From Streptomyces griseoviridis (GTDB taxonomy: Bacteria; Actinomycetota; Actinomycetes; Streptomycetales; Streptomycetaceae), in assembly GCF_005222485.1 (NCBI RefSeq), contig NZ_CP029078.1, positions 2,570,001 through 2,634,000 on the forward strand: a stretch of DNA of 64,000 nucleotides, given 5' to 3'. Numbering within the stretch: the stretch's first letter is position 1; every line of letters begins with the position of its first letter. Shown in pieces: positions 113 through 12,504 of this stretch. The notes below the pieces were generated by a model that saw only the letters and a program-made list of their open reading frames with translations, made no database searches and had not been told where the DNA came from. The position numbers and the translations under genes are program-made.

Positions 113-1342
113 GTGAAGACGACGGCGCGGCCACCGGTGTGGCTGCTGGGGACCTGGGGTGCGACCCGCCTCCTGCTGCTGTTGTTCGTCTTCAAGGTGT
201 GGGTCTTCCCGGGACCTGACGTCACCAGTGACGTCTCCGTCATCTACCAGGGCTGGTTCGAGGTGCTGCGCACCGGTTCCTTCCCGCTGGACGACGTGAC
301 GTGGCAGTACCCGCCGGCCGCCGCCCTCGCGATCCTCTCCCCCGGCCTGCTGCCGTTCCTCGACTACGCGCACGCCTTCTTCGTGCTGGCCTTCGCCGCC
401 GACCTGGCCGCCTTCGCGCTGCTCGGCTGGGCGGGCGGGCGCCCCGGCAGGTCCCCGCGCGGCGCCTGGGTGTGGGTGGTGGGCGTACCGCTGCTCGGCC
501 CGACCGTCTACGCCCGCTACGACGTGATGGTCACCGCCGTCGCGGTCGCCGCGCTGCTCGCCGGGGCCCGGCACCCGCGAGTCATGGGCGCGCTGATCGG
601 CCTCGGCGCGATGCTGAAGGTGTGGCCCGCGCTGCTGCTGGTCGGGGTGCGCCGGTGGACCGTGTGGCTGGCGGCGCTGGTGAGTGTCGCCGGGCTCGCC
701 GCGCTGTTCGCGGTGTCGATGCCGGGCGCGTTCGCGTTCCTGACCTTCCAGCGCGACCGGGGCACCGAGGTGGAGTCGCTCGGCTCGCTGGTCTTCCACA
801 TCGCCAGGCACCACGGCTGGGGCGGGCAGGTGCTGCTGAACTACGGCTCGGTGGAGTTCGTCGGCCCGTACGTGGGTCTGGTGAGCACGGCCGCCCTCTT
901 CCTGACCGGCATGGCGTTCGGCTGGCTGCTGCTGTGGCGGCTCGCGGCGACCCGGTTCGACGGGCGCACGGCGGCGGACGCGGCGTTCGTGGCGGTGCTG
1001 CTGTTCACCGTGACCAGCCGGGTGATCAGCCCGCAGTACCTGGTGTGGCTGATCGGCCTCGCCGCGGTCTGCGTCTGCTTCCGGGGCAGCCGGATGGGGG
1101 TGCCCGCGGTGCTGGTCCTGGCGGCGAGCGGGGTGACGCTGCTGGAGTTCCCGATCTGGTTCTCGCACGTCGTGCAGAGCGACACCCTCGGCGTCAGCCT
1201 GCTGGTGGTGCGCAACGGCCTGCTGGTCCTCGCCACGCTCGTCGCGGCCCGCACCCTGTGGCGGGCGACGGCCCGCCGCGACACCCCGGCCCGGCTGCCC
1301 GGCCAGGCGACCCGCGACAGGGAGTCGTCCGTCCCGTCCTGA
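113..1342 (+). CDS. GT87-family (DUF2029) integral membrane glycosyltransferase
   Basis: The protein is about 409 residues and almost entirely hydrophobic, with roughly ten predicted membrane segments. The conserved acidic/aromatic region near the N-terminus (DVSVIYQGWFEVL, then WQYPPAA) is typical of polyprenyl-phosphate-dependent mannosyltransferases of the GT87/DUF2029 family, which glycosylate lipids or envelope polymers on the outer face of the membrane. I chose the GTG at 113 because AGGGG sits five bases upstream; the open frame extends back to 44 without a good ribosome-binding site. The gene converges on a lipoprotein gene whose stop lies only a few bases away. The substrate cannot be deduced. 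Family call is inferred from composition and motif spacing. Confidence 0.7.
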   Translation: MKTTARPPVWLLGTWGATRLLLLLFVFKVWVFPGPDVTSDVSVIYQGWFEVLRTGSFPLDDVTWQYPPAAALAILSPGLLPFLDYAHAFFVLAFAADLAAFALLGWAGGRPGRSPRGAWVWVVGVPLLGPTVYARYDVMVTAVAVAALLAGARHPRVMGALIGLGAMLKVWPALLLVGVRRWTVWLAALVSVAGLAALFAVSMPGAFAFLTFQRDRGTEVESLGSLVFHIARHHGWGGQVLLNYGSVEFVGPYVGLVSTAALFLTGMAFGWLLLWRLAATRFDGRTAADAAFVAVLLFTVTSRVISPQYLVWLIGLAAVCVCFRGSRMGVPAVLVLAASGVTLLEFPIWFSHVVQSDTLGVSLLVVRNGLLVLATLVAARTLWRATARRDTPARLPGQATRDRESSVPS

Positions 1343-1346
1343 ACGG

Positions 1347-2537
1347 TCAGCCGAACTGTTCGTCCAGGTAGTCGCGCCACCGCTCGGTGAATTCCTCCGG
1401 GGTGGTGCCGAGGGTCCGGCGCAGCGCGTCCGCCACCGAGCCCGACCGGCCGCGGTGGTCGCCCACCGCCCGGTAGAACCGGCCGAGCCGCTCCTCGCCC
1501 CACTCGTCCGCGATCATCCGGCAGGCCAGCCAGCCGCCCTCGTAGGCCCGCGCCAGCTCCGTCGCGTCCCGGCCGAACCCGAAGTCCTCGTCGGTCGGCA
1601 GCGCCTTCGGCAGGTCGCCCTCGGCCACCGCGCGCGCCAGCTCGGGCGCCGCCTGCCGCGGGGTGCGGCCGGTGCCGCGGTAGCCGACCCAGTCCGCGTA
1701 CCCCTCGGACAGCCAGAGCGGGGTGGCGGAGCTGGTGTGGGCGCGGCTGGCGACATGGGTCGTCTCATGGGTGAGGACGACCTGTCTGCCGAGGTCGCCG
1801 AGGACGGCGTACGCCTCCGGGTTGACGATGACGCGGTCGGCCGGCGCCTTCGCCGCGCCGCCCACCTCGCCGGTGGTGACGGCCGCGATGCCCCGGTAGG
1901 CGGAGGCGGGCGTGCCCAGGAGCCCCGCCATGCCCTTCAGCGTCCCGGGGACCAGCACCATGACGTGGGCGGCCCAGCCGCTCCCCCAGGCCGCGGAGAC
2001 GGCCGGTACGGCCCGGTCGGCGAGGTGCGCGTAGGAGCGCAGCGCGGCCTGCGGCTGCCCGACGCCGAGCACCAGGGCGTGCGCCCCGCGCACCGCCGTC
2101 ACCCGGCCCTGGTCCCAGAGCTGCTGGGGCGTCTTCGCGGCGGGCCGGTCGGCGTCCACGGACCACTGCCCGTCGGCCCGCCTGGAGAGGGCGAGGGCGC
2201 GGCGCACGGTGACCGGGGCGGTGTCGTAGCCGCGCACCCGGTAGCTGAGTTCGGCGTCGGCGGTGGCGTCGTCGCCCGAGCCGTGCACCGAGGTCACCCG
2301 GTACGACCAGGCGGCCAGCGGCACCGCGCGCACGTTCTCGAACCAGCCGAGCGTGCCGGTGGCCAGGAAGGCGGCCCTGTCCCCGGCGAGGACGGCGGCG
2401 GCCCGCCGGTCGAGGACCCGCTGGAGCCGCGCGGTGTCGGGGCTCCCGGTGCGCTGCCCGCCGCACGACACCAGACCGGCGAGCAGCAGCGCGAGAAGCA
2501 CCGCCGCCCTCGTCGACCCGCGCCCACGACCAGCCAC
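1347..2537 (-). CDS. Secreted lipoprotein with gluzincin-type HExxH peptidase domain
   Basis: About 396 residues. A hydrophobic signal segment ends in the lipobox L-V-S-C (Cys about residue 25), so the product should be lipid-anchored outside the cell. The C-terminal half contains LTHETTHVAS, an HExxH zinc motif, followed by LSEGYADWVGY with the downstream Glu expected as third zinc ligand in gluzincins (peptidase MA-like). The N-terminal half resembles a small NTF2-like fold region. The GTG at 2537 is chosen because the open frame upstream runs into the neighbouring NlpC/P60 gene and because it gives a clean signal peptide. A hydrolase role is inferred from the motif; the substrate is unknown. 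Confidence 0.72.
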   Translation of the reverse strand: MAGRGRGSTRAAVLLALLLAGLVSCGGQRTGSPDTARLQRVLDRRAAAVLAGDRAAFLATGTLGWFENVRAVPLAAWSYRVTSVHGSGDDATADAELSYRVRGYDTAPVTVRRALALSRRADGQWSVDADRPAAKTPQQLWDQGRVTAVRGAHALVLGVGQPQAALRSYAHLADRAVPAVSAAWGSGWAAHVMVLVPGTLKGMAGLLGTPASAYRGIAAVTTGEVGGAAKAPADRVIVNPEAYAVLGDLGRQVVLTHETTHVASRAHTSSATPLWLSEGYADWVGYRGTGRTPRQAAPELARAVAEGDLPKALPTDEDFGFGRDATELARAYEGGWLACRMIADEWGEERLGRFYRAVGDHRGRSGSVADALRRTLGTTPEEFTERWRDYLDEQFG

Positions 2538-7928: not shown

Positions 7929-9293
7929 TCAGCCCAGCGCGGGCACGCAGCGGCCGTTCTCCGTGCGGTAGTTCCAGCGCGCGCCGTCCGCCACCAGCTC
8001 CCGCACCGCGGTCACGAACCGTTCGATGTGCTCGTCGGGGGTGCCCGCGCCGAAGCTCACCCGGATCGCGTTCAGGGACTTCTCCCCCGGCGCCGCCTCG
8101 GGGGCACCGCACTCGCCCTGCGCCTCGGGGGCGCTGTCCAGCAGGGTGCGGACCAGCGGGTGGGCGCAGAACAGGCCGTCGCGGACGCCGATGCCGTACT
8201 CGGCGGAGAGCGCCGCGGCGAAGTGGGAGCTGTTCCAGCCGTCGACGACGAAGGAGATCACCCCGACCCGCGGCGCGTCGTCGCCGAACAGGGAGAGCAC
8301 CCGCACCTCCGGAACCTCCGCGAGCCCGGCCCTGACGGTCTCCACGAGGTGCTGCTCGCGGGCGACCAGGGTGTCGAAGCCGGCCTCGGTGAGCGCCTTG
8401 CAGGCGGCGGCGATGGAGTAGGCGCCGATCACGTTCGGCGAGCCGGCCTCGTGCCGGGCGGCGGTCTCGTGCCACTCCACGTCCACGCCGCCGTCCTCGC
8501 GCCGGGTGACCTTGCGGCTGGCGCCGCCGCCCGCGAGGTAGGGCTCGGCGGCGGTCAGCCAGTCGGCGCGGCCGGCGAGGACGCCCGAGCCGAACGGCGC
8601 GTACAGCTTGTGCCCGGAGAAGGCGACCCAGTCGACGTCGAGGTCCCGCACGGAGACCGGGTGGTGCGGGGCGAGCTGGGCGGCGTCCAGGACGATCCGG
8701 GCGCCGTGCGCGTGCGCGGCGGCGGCCAGCTCCCGCACCGGCCACAGCTCGCCGGTGACGTTCGACGCGCCGGTGACGCAGACCAGGGCAGGGCCGTGCG
8801 GGTCGCGCGCGGCGAGCGCCCGCTCCAGCGTCTGGACGGCCTGGCGCGGGGTGCGCGGCGCGTCCAGGTAGCTGACCCGGGCGTCCTTCCAGGGCAGCAG
8901 CGAGGCGTGGTGCTCGGTCTCGAAGACGAAGACCTGGCAGCCGTCGGGGAGGGCGGCGGCCAGCAGGTTCAGCGAGTCGGTGGTGGAGCGGGTGAAGACC
9001 AGCTGGTCGTCGGCGCGGCAGTCGAGGAACTCGGCGACGGTCCTGCGGGCGTTCTCGAAGAGGTCGGTGGAGAGCTGCGAGAGGTACCCGGCACCCCGGT
9101 GGACGCTGCCGTAGTAGGGGGCGTAGGCGGCCACGTCGTCCCAGACCCGCTGGAGGGCGGGGGCGCTCGCGGCGTAGTCGAGGGCCGCGTAGCCGACCTC
9201 GCCCCCGGTGACGAGCGGAACGGTGACGTCCCGGCCGAGCACCGGCAGCGGAGCGCAGACGGCCTGGTCGGCGGCAGGGGTGGTGACAGACAT
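7929..9293 (-). CDS. Class V PLP-dependent aminotransferase / cysteine desulfurase-like enzyme under SAM-IV control
   Basis: 454 residues of fold-type I, class V. PLP-binding features are visible: TGASNVTGELWPV, VLDAAQLAPHHPV (Asp/Gln contacting the cofactor), and the Schiff-base Lys in FSGHKLYAPFG. A Cys in RDGLFCAHPLV lies where cysteine desulfurases carry their active-site Cys, so a sulfur-mobilising or C-S lyase reaction is plausible. The leader contains a SAM-IV riboswitch (9448-9595), so expression should fall when S-adenosylmethionine is plentiful, tying the enzyme to methionine/sulfur metabolism. ATG 9293 is preceded by GGGAG at six bases. The exact substrate is not known; class V family membership is secure. 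Confidence 0.88.
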   Translation of the reverse strand: MSVTTPAADQAVCAPLPVLGRDVTVPLVTGGEVGYAALDYAASAPALQRVWDDVAAYAPYYGSVHRGAGYLSQLSTDLFENARRTVAEFLDCRADDQLVFTRSTTDSLNLLAAALPDGCQVFVFETEHHASLLPWKDARVSYLDAPRTPRQAVQTLERALAARDPHGPALVCVTGASNVTGELWPVRELAAAAHAHGARIVLDAAQLAPHHPVSVRDLDVDWVAFSGHKLYAPFGSGVLAGRADWLTAAEPYLAGGGASRKVTRREDGGVDVEWHETAARHEAGSPNVIGAYSIAAACKALTEAGFDTLVAREQHLVETVRAGLAEVPEVRVLSLFGDDAPRVGVISFVVDGWNSSHFAAALSAEYGIGVRDGLFCAHPLVRTLLDSAPEAQGECGAPEAAPGEKSLNAIRVSFGAGTPDEHIERFVTAVRELVADGARWNYRTENGRCVPALG

Positions 9294-9411
9294 GGCGGAC
9301 TCCCGTGAGAGGCGTACGGATCCACCGCGCGAGCGGACAGGGCTCGAAGCGCGGAAGGACACCGCAGAAGGGTGAAGAGGTGAAAGGGATGCGGAGGCGG
9401 GGCTCGACGCC

Positions 9412-9432
9412 CTAGCGCATTCGCTTGCTCAC
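9412..9432 (-). CDS. Candidate six-codon leader ORF (M-S-K-R-M-R)
   Basis: GTG-AGC-AAG-CGA-ATG-CGC-TAG lies in the leader between the SAM-IV aptamer and the class V aminotransferase. It has a textbook Shine-Dalgarno, GAGGAG at 9439-9444, six bases before its GTG, and that site abuts the 3' edge of the terminal hairpin at 9453-9477. It ends 118 bases before the main start. A riboswitch could gate translation of this ORF, but no regulatory function is shown by the sequence alone. Could be coincidental. Confidence 0.4.
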   Translation of the reverse strand: MSKRMR

Positions 9433-9447
9433 GGAAGGCTCCTCGAC

Positions 9448-9595
9448 GACCAGGACCCCTGGAGGTTCGAGGGGTCCGCGCTTGCCGTGGACCTCGCTGC
9501 CCACGACCTGGTCTTCACCCGGGGCACCCCGCCACGGACGGAGGGTTGCCGGACAGTCGGCCGGGGCCTCATGACTGTCACTCATGACCTGGTCA
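9448..9595 (-). promoter_or_regulatory. SAM-IV riboswitch
   Basis: Read on the minus strand, the segment begins GGTCATGAGTG, continues with the core CCGGCAACCCTCCG, then GGGGTGCCCCGGGTGAAGA, and closes with a strong hairpin (GGACCCCT ... AGGGGTCC at 9453-9477). These blocks and their order match the actinobacterial SAM-IV consensus as I remember it. The class senses S-adenosylmethionine, and the element lies in the leader of the class V aminotransferase gene. The 5' edge follows a promoter-like sequence closely, so the aptamer would be the very start of the transcript. Boundaries are approximate. Confidence 0.88.
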
Positions 9596-9661: not shown

Positions 9662-10726
9662 TCAGGCGTTGCTCGCCGCCACCCAGCGTTCGAGGGCCCG
9701 CTTGGCCGCGCCGGAGTCGATCGACTCGGCCGCCTTCGCCATGCCCGCGCCGATCCGCTCGGTGAGTGTGCCCGAGCCGCGCTCGAGGGCCACCAGCGCG
9801 GCCGCCGAGTTCAGCAGGACGGCGTCCCGCACCGGGCCGCTCTCGCCGTCCAGGAGCCTGCGGGCGACCTCCGCGTTGTACGACGGGTCGCCGCCGCGCA
9901 GCGCCTCCACGGGCACCAGGTCGAGGCCGACGTCCCGGGGGTCGAAGCGCTCTTCGGCGACGTGCCCCTCGGCGACCGTCCAGACCCGGGAGGTGGCCGT
10001 CGTGGTCAGCTCGTCGAGACCGTCGTCGCCGCGGAAGACCAGCGAGGAGTTGCCGCGCGCGGCGAAGACGCCGGCCACGATCGGCGCCATCCGCGGGTCG
10101 GCCACCCCGACCGCCTGGGCCCGCACCCGGGCCGGGTTGGTGAGCGGGCCGAGCGCGTTGAAGACCGTGCGGATGCCCAACTGGCCGCGGGCCGCGCCCG
10201 CGTGCCGCAGCGCCGGGTGGAACTTCACCGCGAAGCAGAAGGTGATCCCGGCCTCCTCGGCCACCTCGGGCACCCGCTTCAGCGGCAGGTCGAGGTTGAC
10301 GCCCAGCTTCTCCAGGACGTCGGAGGCCCCGGACGCGGAGGACGCGGCCCGGTTGCCGTGCTTGACGACGCGCGCGCCGGTGCCGGCCACCACGATCGCC
10401 GACATGGTGGAGATGTTCACCGTCTTCGCGCCGTCGCCCCCGGTGCCGACGATGTCGACGCAGGGGCCGGCCACCTCGATCACGTTGGCGTGCGCGTACA
10501 TCGTGCGGACCAGGCCGTCGATCTCCTGGACCGTCTCGCCCTTGGCGCGCAGCGCCACCACGAACCCGGCGATCTGCGCGTCGGTCGCCTCGCCGCGCAT
10601 GATCAGGTCCATCGCCCAGGCGGTGTCGTCCGCGCTGAGGTCCTGGCCGTTCAGCAGGCCGTTCAGCAGGGCGGGCCAGGAACGGCCCGCCGCGGTGTCG
10701 CCTCCAGCGGGGGTCACAGCGCTCAT
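9662..10726 (-). CDS. trpD: Anthranilate phosphoribosyltransferase
   Basis: About 354 residues. It transfers phosphoribose from PRPP to anthranilate, the second step of tryptophan biosynthesis. Signature regions are [17 protein letters not shown] (PRPP/Mg site), [21 protein letters not shown] (anthranilate site), and [11 protein letters not shown]; all are intact and the length is typical. ATG 10726 is supported by AGGAG nine bases upstream. It lies downstream of the qcr operon behind a strong terminator, so it is probably its own unit. Location next to qcrB rather than with other trp genes is shared with mycobacteria. Confidence 0.96.
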
Positions 10727-10807
10727 GAGGCCGCTCCTGGGTGTCGTAGAAGAGTCGGGGAGAGAAGAAGGCGGTGCGGGCTCCACCCTATCCAGCCCGG
10801 GGCACGC

Positions 10808-10869: not shown

Positions 10870-12504
10870 TCAGTGGTGGCCGTGGCCGCTGGTGATCTCC
10901 TTGTACTCCTCGACGGTGGGCTTCGGGATCTGCGACTCCTCGCCGTAGTACGACTCGCTGAGCTTGGCGCGCAGCTTCTCGGAGCCCTTCACCTTGCGCT
11001 CGACGCCGTTCTCGTCGACGGTGCCGCCGATCTCCACCGGGCGGTACTGCTCGTGCGCGGTGAGGGTGTGCAGCGCGTCCTGGCTGAGCGGCTCGTGGAC
11101 CTCGATGAACTCACCGTGCGGCAGCCGCTTGATGGTGCCGGTCTCGCGACCGTGCAGCACCTTCTCGCGGTCCCGGCGCTGGAGGCCGAGGCAGATGCGC
11201 TTGGTGGCGATGAAGACGAGGACCGGCACCACGAAGAAGCCGATGCGCACGAACCAGGTGATCGCGTTGATCGACAGGTGGAAGTGGGTGGCCCAGAGGT
11301 CGTTGCCACCACCGACGAGCAGCACGAAGTACCAGGAGATCCAGGCCACGCCGAACGCGGTGCGGGTCGGGGCGTTGCGCGGACGGTCCAGGATGTGGTG
11401 CTCGCGCTTGTCGCCGGTGACCCAGGACTCGATGAACGGGTAGACCGCGATCGAGACCAGCACCAGCGGGAAGATGACCAGCGGGATGAACACACCCAGG
11501 ACGAGCGTGTGGCCCCAGAGGTTGATCTCCCAGCCAGGCATCACCCGGATCAGGCCCTCGGAGAAGCCCATGTACCAGTCGGGCTGGGCACCGGTGGACA
11601 CCTGGTCGGGCCGGTACGGTCCGAGGGCCCAGATCGGGTTGATCGAGGCGATCGCGGCGACGACCGCGATGACACCGAAGACCAGGAAGAAGAAGCCGCC
11701 CGCCTTCGCCATGTACACGGGCAACAGGGGCATGCCGACGACGTTGTTGTTCGTCTTTCCGGGGCCCGCGAACTGCGTGTGCTTGTGGTAGAAGACCAGG
11801 ATCAGGTGGCCGACCACCAGGCCGAGCATGATGCCCGGCAGCAGCAGGATGTGGATCGAGTAGAAGCGGGCCACGAAGTCGCCGCCCGGGAACTCGCCGC
11901 CGAAGAGGAAGAACGACAGGTACGTGCCGACGATCGGCACGGACAGGATCGCGCCCTCCATGAAGCGGACACCGGTGCCGGAGAGCAGGTCGTCGGGGAG
12001 CGAGTAGCCGGTGAAGCCGGTGAACATGCCCAGGACGAACAGCAGGAAGCCGAACAGCCAGTTGATCTCGCGGGGCTTGCGGAACGCACCCGTGAAGAAG
12101 ACGCGCATCATGTGCACGAACATGCCGGCCAGGAAGATCAGCGCGGCCCAGTGGTGGATCTGCCGGATCAGCAGGCCACCGCGCACCTCGAAGGAGATGT
12201 GCAGGGTCGAGCTGAACGCCTCCGACATCAGCTGCCCCTGGAGCGGGACGTAGCTGCCGTGGTACTCCACCTCGTTCATCGACGGGTGGAAGAACAGCGT
12301 CAGGTACACACCCGTGAGGATGATGATGATGAAGCTGTAGAGGCAGACCTCACCCAACATGAACGACCAGTGGTCGGGGAAGATCTTGCGCATGTTGGAC
12401 TTGGCGAGGGAGTAGATCCCCAGCCGGCCGTCGGCCCAGTCGGCGACGCGCTCGCCGGCCGGCGCTTTGCCGCGCCGGGTCTCGGTGCTCTCGTTGGTGC
12501 TCAT
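10870..12504 (-). CDS. qcrB: Menaquinol-cytochrome c reductase, cytochrome b subunit
   Basis: 544 residues, the membrane-embedded cytochrome b of the actinobacterial bcc complex. It oxidises menaquinol and passes electrons through two b hemes. Paired heme-ligand regions are visible in the helices containing [11 protein letters not shown] and [10 protein letters not shown], and a quinol-site region near [10 protein letters not shown]. The C-terminal extension of about 100 charged residues is typical of actinobacterial QcrB and of the bcc-aa3 supercomplex. ATG overlaps the qcrA stop by four bases (ATGA), so it is the last gene of a coupled ctaE-qcrC-qcrA-qcrB unit. Confidence 0.97.

Follow-up and report, generated by a model that had tools for sequence, protein, structure and literature searches.

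What does the SAM-IV riboswitch found upstream of the gene for a class V PLP enzyme in Streptomyces griseoviridis act on, the enzyme gene itself or something that stands between the two? The window (here, the whole 64,000-nucleotide stretch of DNA that was analysed) had been described from its letters alone as carrying such a riboswitch on the minus strand, and a covariance-model search had been proposed as a check on that call. The call stands: cmscan of the whole window gave a single gathering-level Rfam match, SAM-IV (RF00634) at 9589..9473(-), which scores 111.8 bits against a gathering cut-off of 38 and spans model positions 1-116 of 116 (E 8.4e-20). It is the only SAM-IV copy in the 8.96-Mb genome. 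Within the aptamer (9473..9589, minus strand) the P1 strands lie at 9589..9586 and 9513..9510, and CCGTG at 9537..9533 can be paired by eye with CGCGG at 9480..9476, with one G-U pair. In this class a pseudoknot joins the P3 loop with the 3' tail, and the CCGTG/CGCGG pairing is a candidate for it. The span originally assigned to the riboswitch, 9448-9595, takes in the aptamer together with some of the expression platform. A strict promoter pattern (TTGAC-17-TANNNT) has no match within the window; a trpD gene (window 9662-10786, minus strand) lies on the same strand about 70 bp upstream of the riboswitch.

The class V enzyme behind the aptamer

The gene downstream (7929..9293, minus strand, 454 amino acids) encodes a cysteine-desulfurase-like class V PLP enzyme, in agreement with the sequence-only reading. 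It matches Pfam PF00266 (Aminotran_5) with 256 bits, and its loop cysteine, C376, is invariant in 74 aligned sequences, as are K229, H128, D203, Q206, H210, R371 and R411; the catalytic lysine, the loop cysteine and the PLP-site residues of the SufS type are all kept. The fold model has a mean pLDDT of 90.9, and the nearest solved fold among the matches listed is E. coli SufS (TM 0.75-0.78 by query length). The enzyme scores 252.5 bits with the SufS model TIGR01979, below its cut-off of 475.1, and it stays below threshold with every one of the 22 NCBIfam models that it matched. The source genome encodes a separate SufS (575.2 bits, above the cut-off), two NifS-like proteins that score below their cut-offs, and a cystathionine gamma-synthase, an O-acetylhomoserine sulfhydrylase and a cystathionine gamma-lyase; the presence of this separate SufS and of the other sulfur enzymes argues that the class V enzyme is not the housekeeping desulfurase. 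Judged from its residues and scores, it is not SufS, though its active site retains a cysteine-desulfurase-like character. Its regulation and active-site residues together allow the guess that it might be a persulfide-forming, cysteine-desulfurase-like enzyme that supplies sulfur at low SAM, and the unrecognised step in sulfur amino-acid turnover that had been suggested for it is possible. Its counterpart in S. coelicolor is presumably SCO2146.

Two further candidate clues were set aside. Operon partners gave none, as beyond the enzyme no family occurs in more than five loci (40 loci from outside the family, in which a GC-frame caller of our own picked 471 ORFs). In the 28 genomes examined from the window's own genus, a threshold of E 1e-150 finds metY in 7 and the enzyme in 27; metY and the enzyme often occur together in other genomes, so there is no strict replacement of one by the other.

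The link between SAM-IV and a class V gene is not new: it is already listed for S. lividans (PMC8079986) and S. clavuligerus (PMC8269248). The passages concerned report that S. lividans SLIV_26975, annotated as 'cysteine desulfurase', carries a SAM-IV element (PMC8079986), and that the SAM-IV leader of S. clavuligerus CRV15_21540 shows strong premature termination (PMC8269248). As these passages describe them, both leaders resemble that of the window in having SAM-IV before a class V PLP/cysteine desulfurase gene.

A six-codon ORF between aptamer and enzyme gene

The riboswitch does not adjoin the enzyme start; the ribosome-binding site next to it belongs to a conserved six-codon mini-ORF, GTG AGC AAG CGA ATG CGC TAG (MSKRMR*), at 9412..9432(-). 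Its site, GAGGAG at 9439..9444(-), is separated from the GTG by 6 nt as read from the sequence, and the enzyme has its own ribosome-binding site, GGGAG at 9300..9304(-), before the ATG at 9293. Of the original interpretation, then, SAM-IV and the class V enzyme with its loop cysteine survive; the novelty of the link and the abutment of riboswitch and enzyme start do not.

The window and 80 named loci together form a set of 81 leaders. The mini-ORF is present in 80 of the 81, a count whose members are not independent because the 80 named loci are closely related (88-96% protein identity); 73 were found by script and seven (L064, L066, L100, L107, L116, L128 and L136) by reading the rows that the script had missed. 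The sole exception, S. flaveus L122, lacks both mini-ORF and spacer and has the same ribosome site fused to the enzyme start, an arrangement that resembles leaders outside the family, where this site lies directly on the enzyme start. All 73 leaders tallied by script have GAGGGAG, GAGGAG or AAGGGAG 6-8 nt 5' of the mini-ORF start. In the same 73 the GTG start, CGA at codon 4, ATG at codon 5 and the TAG stop are invariant, and codon 6 is CGA in 52, CGC in 11, CGT in 8, CGG in 1 and CTT in 1 (CGN in 72 of 73). Across the full locus set the start is GTG, ATG or TTG, the three that the search pattern admits. Mean column identity of the mini-ORF is 98%, and the match to the window residue is 0.96 in mini-ORF columns and 0.34 in the spacer. 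The enzyme genes at the 80 named loci rarely use either CGA or TAG: CGA makes up 36 of 2560 arginine codons and TAG 3 of 80 stops. A search of the genome found no second copy of the mini-ORF, and on reading it was not seen in the metK and metH RNA leaders of the source genome.

The passages on the S. lividans and S. clavuligerus leaders mention no mini-ORF (PMC8079986, PMC8269248), and eight leader peptides tabulated for S. lividans, in the portion of the report concerned, do not include one for SLIV_26975 (PMC8079986). No report of a mini-ORF behind SAM-IV was found in the literature searched, though genome-wide uORF lists may contain one.

Could this cassette be an untranslated RNA element, that is, a signal for a protein or a structure? 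CGA and TAG never change across the 73 tallied leaders even though synonyms exist, which could reflect a constraint at the RNA level, and a loose pattern finds a small flanking hairpin, GGGC...GCCC, running from the stop codon (9400..9412, minus strand), in 70 of the 73. However, the start codon exchanges among GTG, ATG and TTG, codon 6 varies within CGN, the spacing to the ribosome site is fixed, and related genera vary the nucleotides while keeping similar peptides (MRKRMR, MTKRMR). We therefore regard an untranslated element as quite improbable.

Expression platform, spacer and a predicted route to the enzyme gene

Since the ribosome site beside the aptamer is that of the mini-ORF and not that of the enzyme, SAM binding is predicted to switch off translation of the mini-ORF. 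Just 5' of this site lies CCTGGTC (9448..9454, minus strand), a candidate anti-P1 strand that is the exact complement of GACCAGG (9513..9507) in the aptamer. We folded the 79 of 81 leaders that could be parsed in an energy model with states set by hand: in the aptamer state P1 was set and the pseudoknot bases were blocked, and in the alternative state the anti-P1 helix was set. The 7-bp anti-P1 pairing is possible in 62 of the 79 and is no option in the other 17. The ribosome site has a mean predicted openness of 0.21 in the aptamer state versus 0.38 in the anti-P1 state, and the model gives the lower value with the aptamer set in 59 of the 62 leaders; in the same model the anti-P1 state is the more stable on average (-86.7 versus -80.6 kcal/mol). 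Nine of the 17 leaders that lack the 7-bp option keep a rather open site even in the aptamer state (0.38-0.53). This is the behaviour of leaders without the platform hairpin (below), for which pairing alone is an insufficient explanation.

The platform hairpin, GGACCCCT/AGGGGTCC at 9453..9477(-), is kept with at least 7 of its 8 pairs in 69 of 73 leaders and is absent from four; its pair 4 changes on both sides (C-G in 62, T-A in 7). Such retention, and the premature transcripts reported in part of a study of S. clavuligerus (PMC8269248), would fit control of the enzyme by intrinsic termination at this hairpin, with the mini-ORF a leftover. We rejected the hairpin as an intrinsic terminator, as no U run follows it and four leaders do without it; a leftover is also unlikely to have kept such high column identity. 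This explanation is the least credible of those considered here, and we give it very little weight.

Beyond the mini-ORF stop the leader changes character. The spacer (9305..9411, minus strand) is C-rich and G-poor, with 44.7% C and 24.4% G after the stop and a best 78-nt C/G ratio of 2.53. Across the leaders the median of this best ratio, taken over the first 140 nt, is 2.33, as against a median of 1.25 and a 95th percentile of 1.95 for random 140-nt stretches from the same loci, and 67 of 73 leaders exceed that 95th percentile. The composition has the appearance expected of a Rho-loading site, for which we consider the spacer a candidate.

The reading that we favour, with somewhat more confidence than doubt, is that SAM binding would stop translation of MSKRMR*, and that this would probably lead to Rho-type premature termination before the enzyme gene. 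At high SAM, P1 and the pseudoknot would be formed and, in the folding model, the ribosome site would pair with CCTCG beside the aptamer; the mini-ORF site would then be hidden, and Rho-type termination would be allowed in the C-rich spacer. At low SAM, GACCAGG would pair with CCTGGTC, leaving the ribosome site more open by the same model, and a ribosome would presumably initiate on the mini-ORF and slow at CGA-AUG-CGN-UAG. The slowed ribosome may cover the start of the Rho-loading stretch, so that RNA polymerase would reach the enzyme gene. This scheme is built on features observed at the locus: the aptamer, the conserved mini-ORF with its rare codons, the ribosome site of the mini-ORF and the spacing of that site, the composition of the spacer, and the distal ribosome-binding site of the enzyme. 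The premature transcripts of S. clavuligerus (PMC8269248) fit it too.

The closest tested mechanism is that of the pe20 Mbox of M. tuberculosis, described in the passages concerned as a translational platform with a conserved uORF (Rv1805A) and Rho-dependent termination (PMC12810186). The two are alike in that an aptamer precedes a conserved short ORF; they differ in that the pe20 aptamer senses Mg2+, its uORF is longer and, according to those passages, its main site of termination comes before the uORF (PMC12810186). A conserved short ORF with its ribosome site beside the aptamer, as in the pe20 type, is what we find in 80 of 81 leaders, and the Streptomyces case would be a SAM-IV version of that type with a far shorter uORF and fixed rare codons. 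Interplay of a riboswitch with a translated uORF is also described, in the part of the report concerned, for the metE and ppe2 B12 riboswitches of M. tuberculosis (PMC11260477); these differ in having B12 aptamers and, for metE, a uORF that represses its gene. The SAM-II metA leader of S. meliloti is similar in that the ribosome site of a SAM riboswitch is distant from the true start, but it belongs to another class and uses an in-frame AUG2, and the passages concerned describe no separate conserved uORF (PMC9373788).

Distribution and other SAM-IV targets

SAM-IV is present in 197 of 200 genomes of the family, and the exact cassette pattern is found in 83 of the 200, with one match in each, while the reversed pattern has none. 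Of the 83 matches, 76 follow a listed SAM-IV of the same strand at a distance of 13-62 nt and a further six sit behind a SAM-IV found with our own model, for a total of 82 of 83; the remaining match, in genome G442, was left out of this placement check. Within the window's genus 57 of 63 genomes carry the pattern. Five of the six that miss it bear MSNRMR, MLQRMR, MSQHMP, MSKRMR or MNLRMR; the sixth, G277, is without a SAM-IV match and is the one genus member sampled where both SAM-IV and the class V enzyme are missing by the thresholds applied. Other genera of the family show the exact pattern in 26 of 137 genomes, and the loci read there, picked partly because the exact pattern was absent, either encode MRKRMR, MTKRMR, MIKRMR, MKRMR or MQMMR or lack the mini-ORF, in which case the aptamer adjoins the enzyme gene directly. 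Among the variants, MSQHMP (L311) is without CGA and MQMMR (L304) ends in TGA. The mini-ORF is therefore dispensable, since several genera of the family do without it. Of 40 class V loci taken from outside the family, 33 have a SAM-IV element in front of the enzyme gene; none of these 33 leaders has a CGA-ATG uORF, and the aptamer adjoins the enzyme gene. A lenient scan of loci from outside the family listed two short ORFs (L159 and L172), both unrelated.

We placed 139 SAM-IV aptamers, 58 before class V genes, 40 before metY and 41 before other or unassigned genes. M. avium also has SAM-IV before an O-acetylhomoserine sulfhydrylase gene, according to part of a published report (PMC3774663). 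Eight of the 40 metY leaders, from seven other families, have a short uORF with an in-frame CGA-ATG (MTCRMRR, MTCRMPF, MCCCRMN, MCIRRMCCR, MSCQRMPRR, MNHHRMRR, MCRCRMTGVAGA and MCCCCRMTRR), where dinucleotide shuffles gave a mean of 0.01 and a maximum of 1; the remaining 32 have none, and 22 of the 40 leaders are at most 115 nt long. A uORF with at least two cysteine codons occurs in 7 of the 40 (shuffle mean 0.12, maximum 2). These leaders raise the broader prospect, which we hold tentatively and with less confidence than the mechanism above, that SAM-IV in several actinomycete families gates CGA-AUG pause mini-ORFs and so passes SAM and the state of translation on to gene transcription; the cassette would be CGA-AUG-CGN-UAG in Streptomyces, and Cys codons with CGA-AUG at metY.

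The same metY uORFs, with their CGA-ATG and cysteine codons, could also be taken to mean that the mini-ORF is mainly a sensor of charged tRNA, stalling for Arg at the rare CGA, for Met at ATG and for Cys in the metY versions, with the riboswitch adding SAM as a second input. S. coelicolor SCO2146 ('cysteine desulfurase') is indeed placed in the arginine-effect group, in the wild type, in the part of a study concerned (PMC3293853). That group, however, also takes in genes that are not preceded by a leader of this kind, and the study records shifts of metE and metH as well (PMC3293853). Inside the Streptomyces mini-ORF there is a single Met codon and none for Cys, and regulatory codons do not occur in a run. 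We think such a dual-input attenuator unlikely, though less so than an untranslated RNA element.

Other short ORFs accompany SAM-IV. Seven metY leaders (L006, L008, L015, L024, L186, L197 and L221) have further ones, several of them Cys-rich: MRCCCQ, MRCCPLTRSH, MLCCRNTHR, MRSCR and MRSYR by scan, and MRASLHPLTRCCCR and MCARFAHSLLIVCRC by eye. Leader peptides of the xDLxR type occur in 19 of 41 other-target leaders versus none of 58 class V and none of 40 metY leaders, and two natural ones scanned with NF042934 score 31.1 and 28 bits against a cut-off of 27. Loci with longer leader peptides of this kind are L283-L292, L303, L316, L318, L319, L321, L323, L325, L327, L329, L331 and L192, though the motif is not in every one, and by eye the genes behind them resemble ABC transporters and luciferase-type monooxygenases. 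Polycysteine leader peptides of mycobacteria are cited in PMC13236596, in the passage concerned. The Cys-rich actinobacterial leaders of NF042934 resemble the mini-ORF in being short ORFs of sulfur genes, some of them behind SAM-IV; these and the polycysteine leaders are longer, and Cys-rich or of RRHxDLxR type, whereas MSKRMR by eye has neither feature. In L168 two SAM-IV aptamers lie back to back (1956-2073(-) and 2175-2293(+)), one facing a class V gene and the second facing a leader peptide of RRHVDLVR type and a luciferase-type monooxygenase-like gene. One family member, at L301, has three within 11.3 kb (313-429(+), 11166-11278(-) and 11494-11599(+)), before genes that by eye resemble amino-acid ABC permeases and a luciferase-type monooxygenase. 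SAM-IV also lies directly before a metK-like gene (L216) and metX-like genes (L201, L214), again by eye.

If SAM does act through MSKRMR* as proposed, a well-known riboswitch class would in Streptomyces control an ORF of only six codons instead of its target gene, and regulatory leaders are usually far longer than that. Because the codons of the mini-ORF are rare, a sharp prediction follows: replacing CGA or TAG by common synonyms should alter regulation with the peptide unchanged. SAM sensing would be tied to leader ORFs with Cys and Met codons at other sulfur genes; annotators would gain a reason to seek six-codon ORFs.
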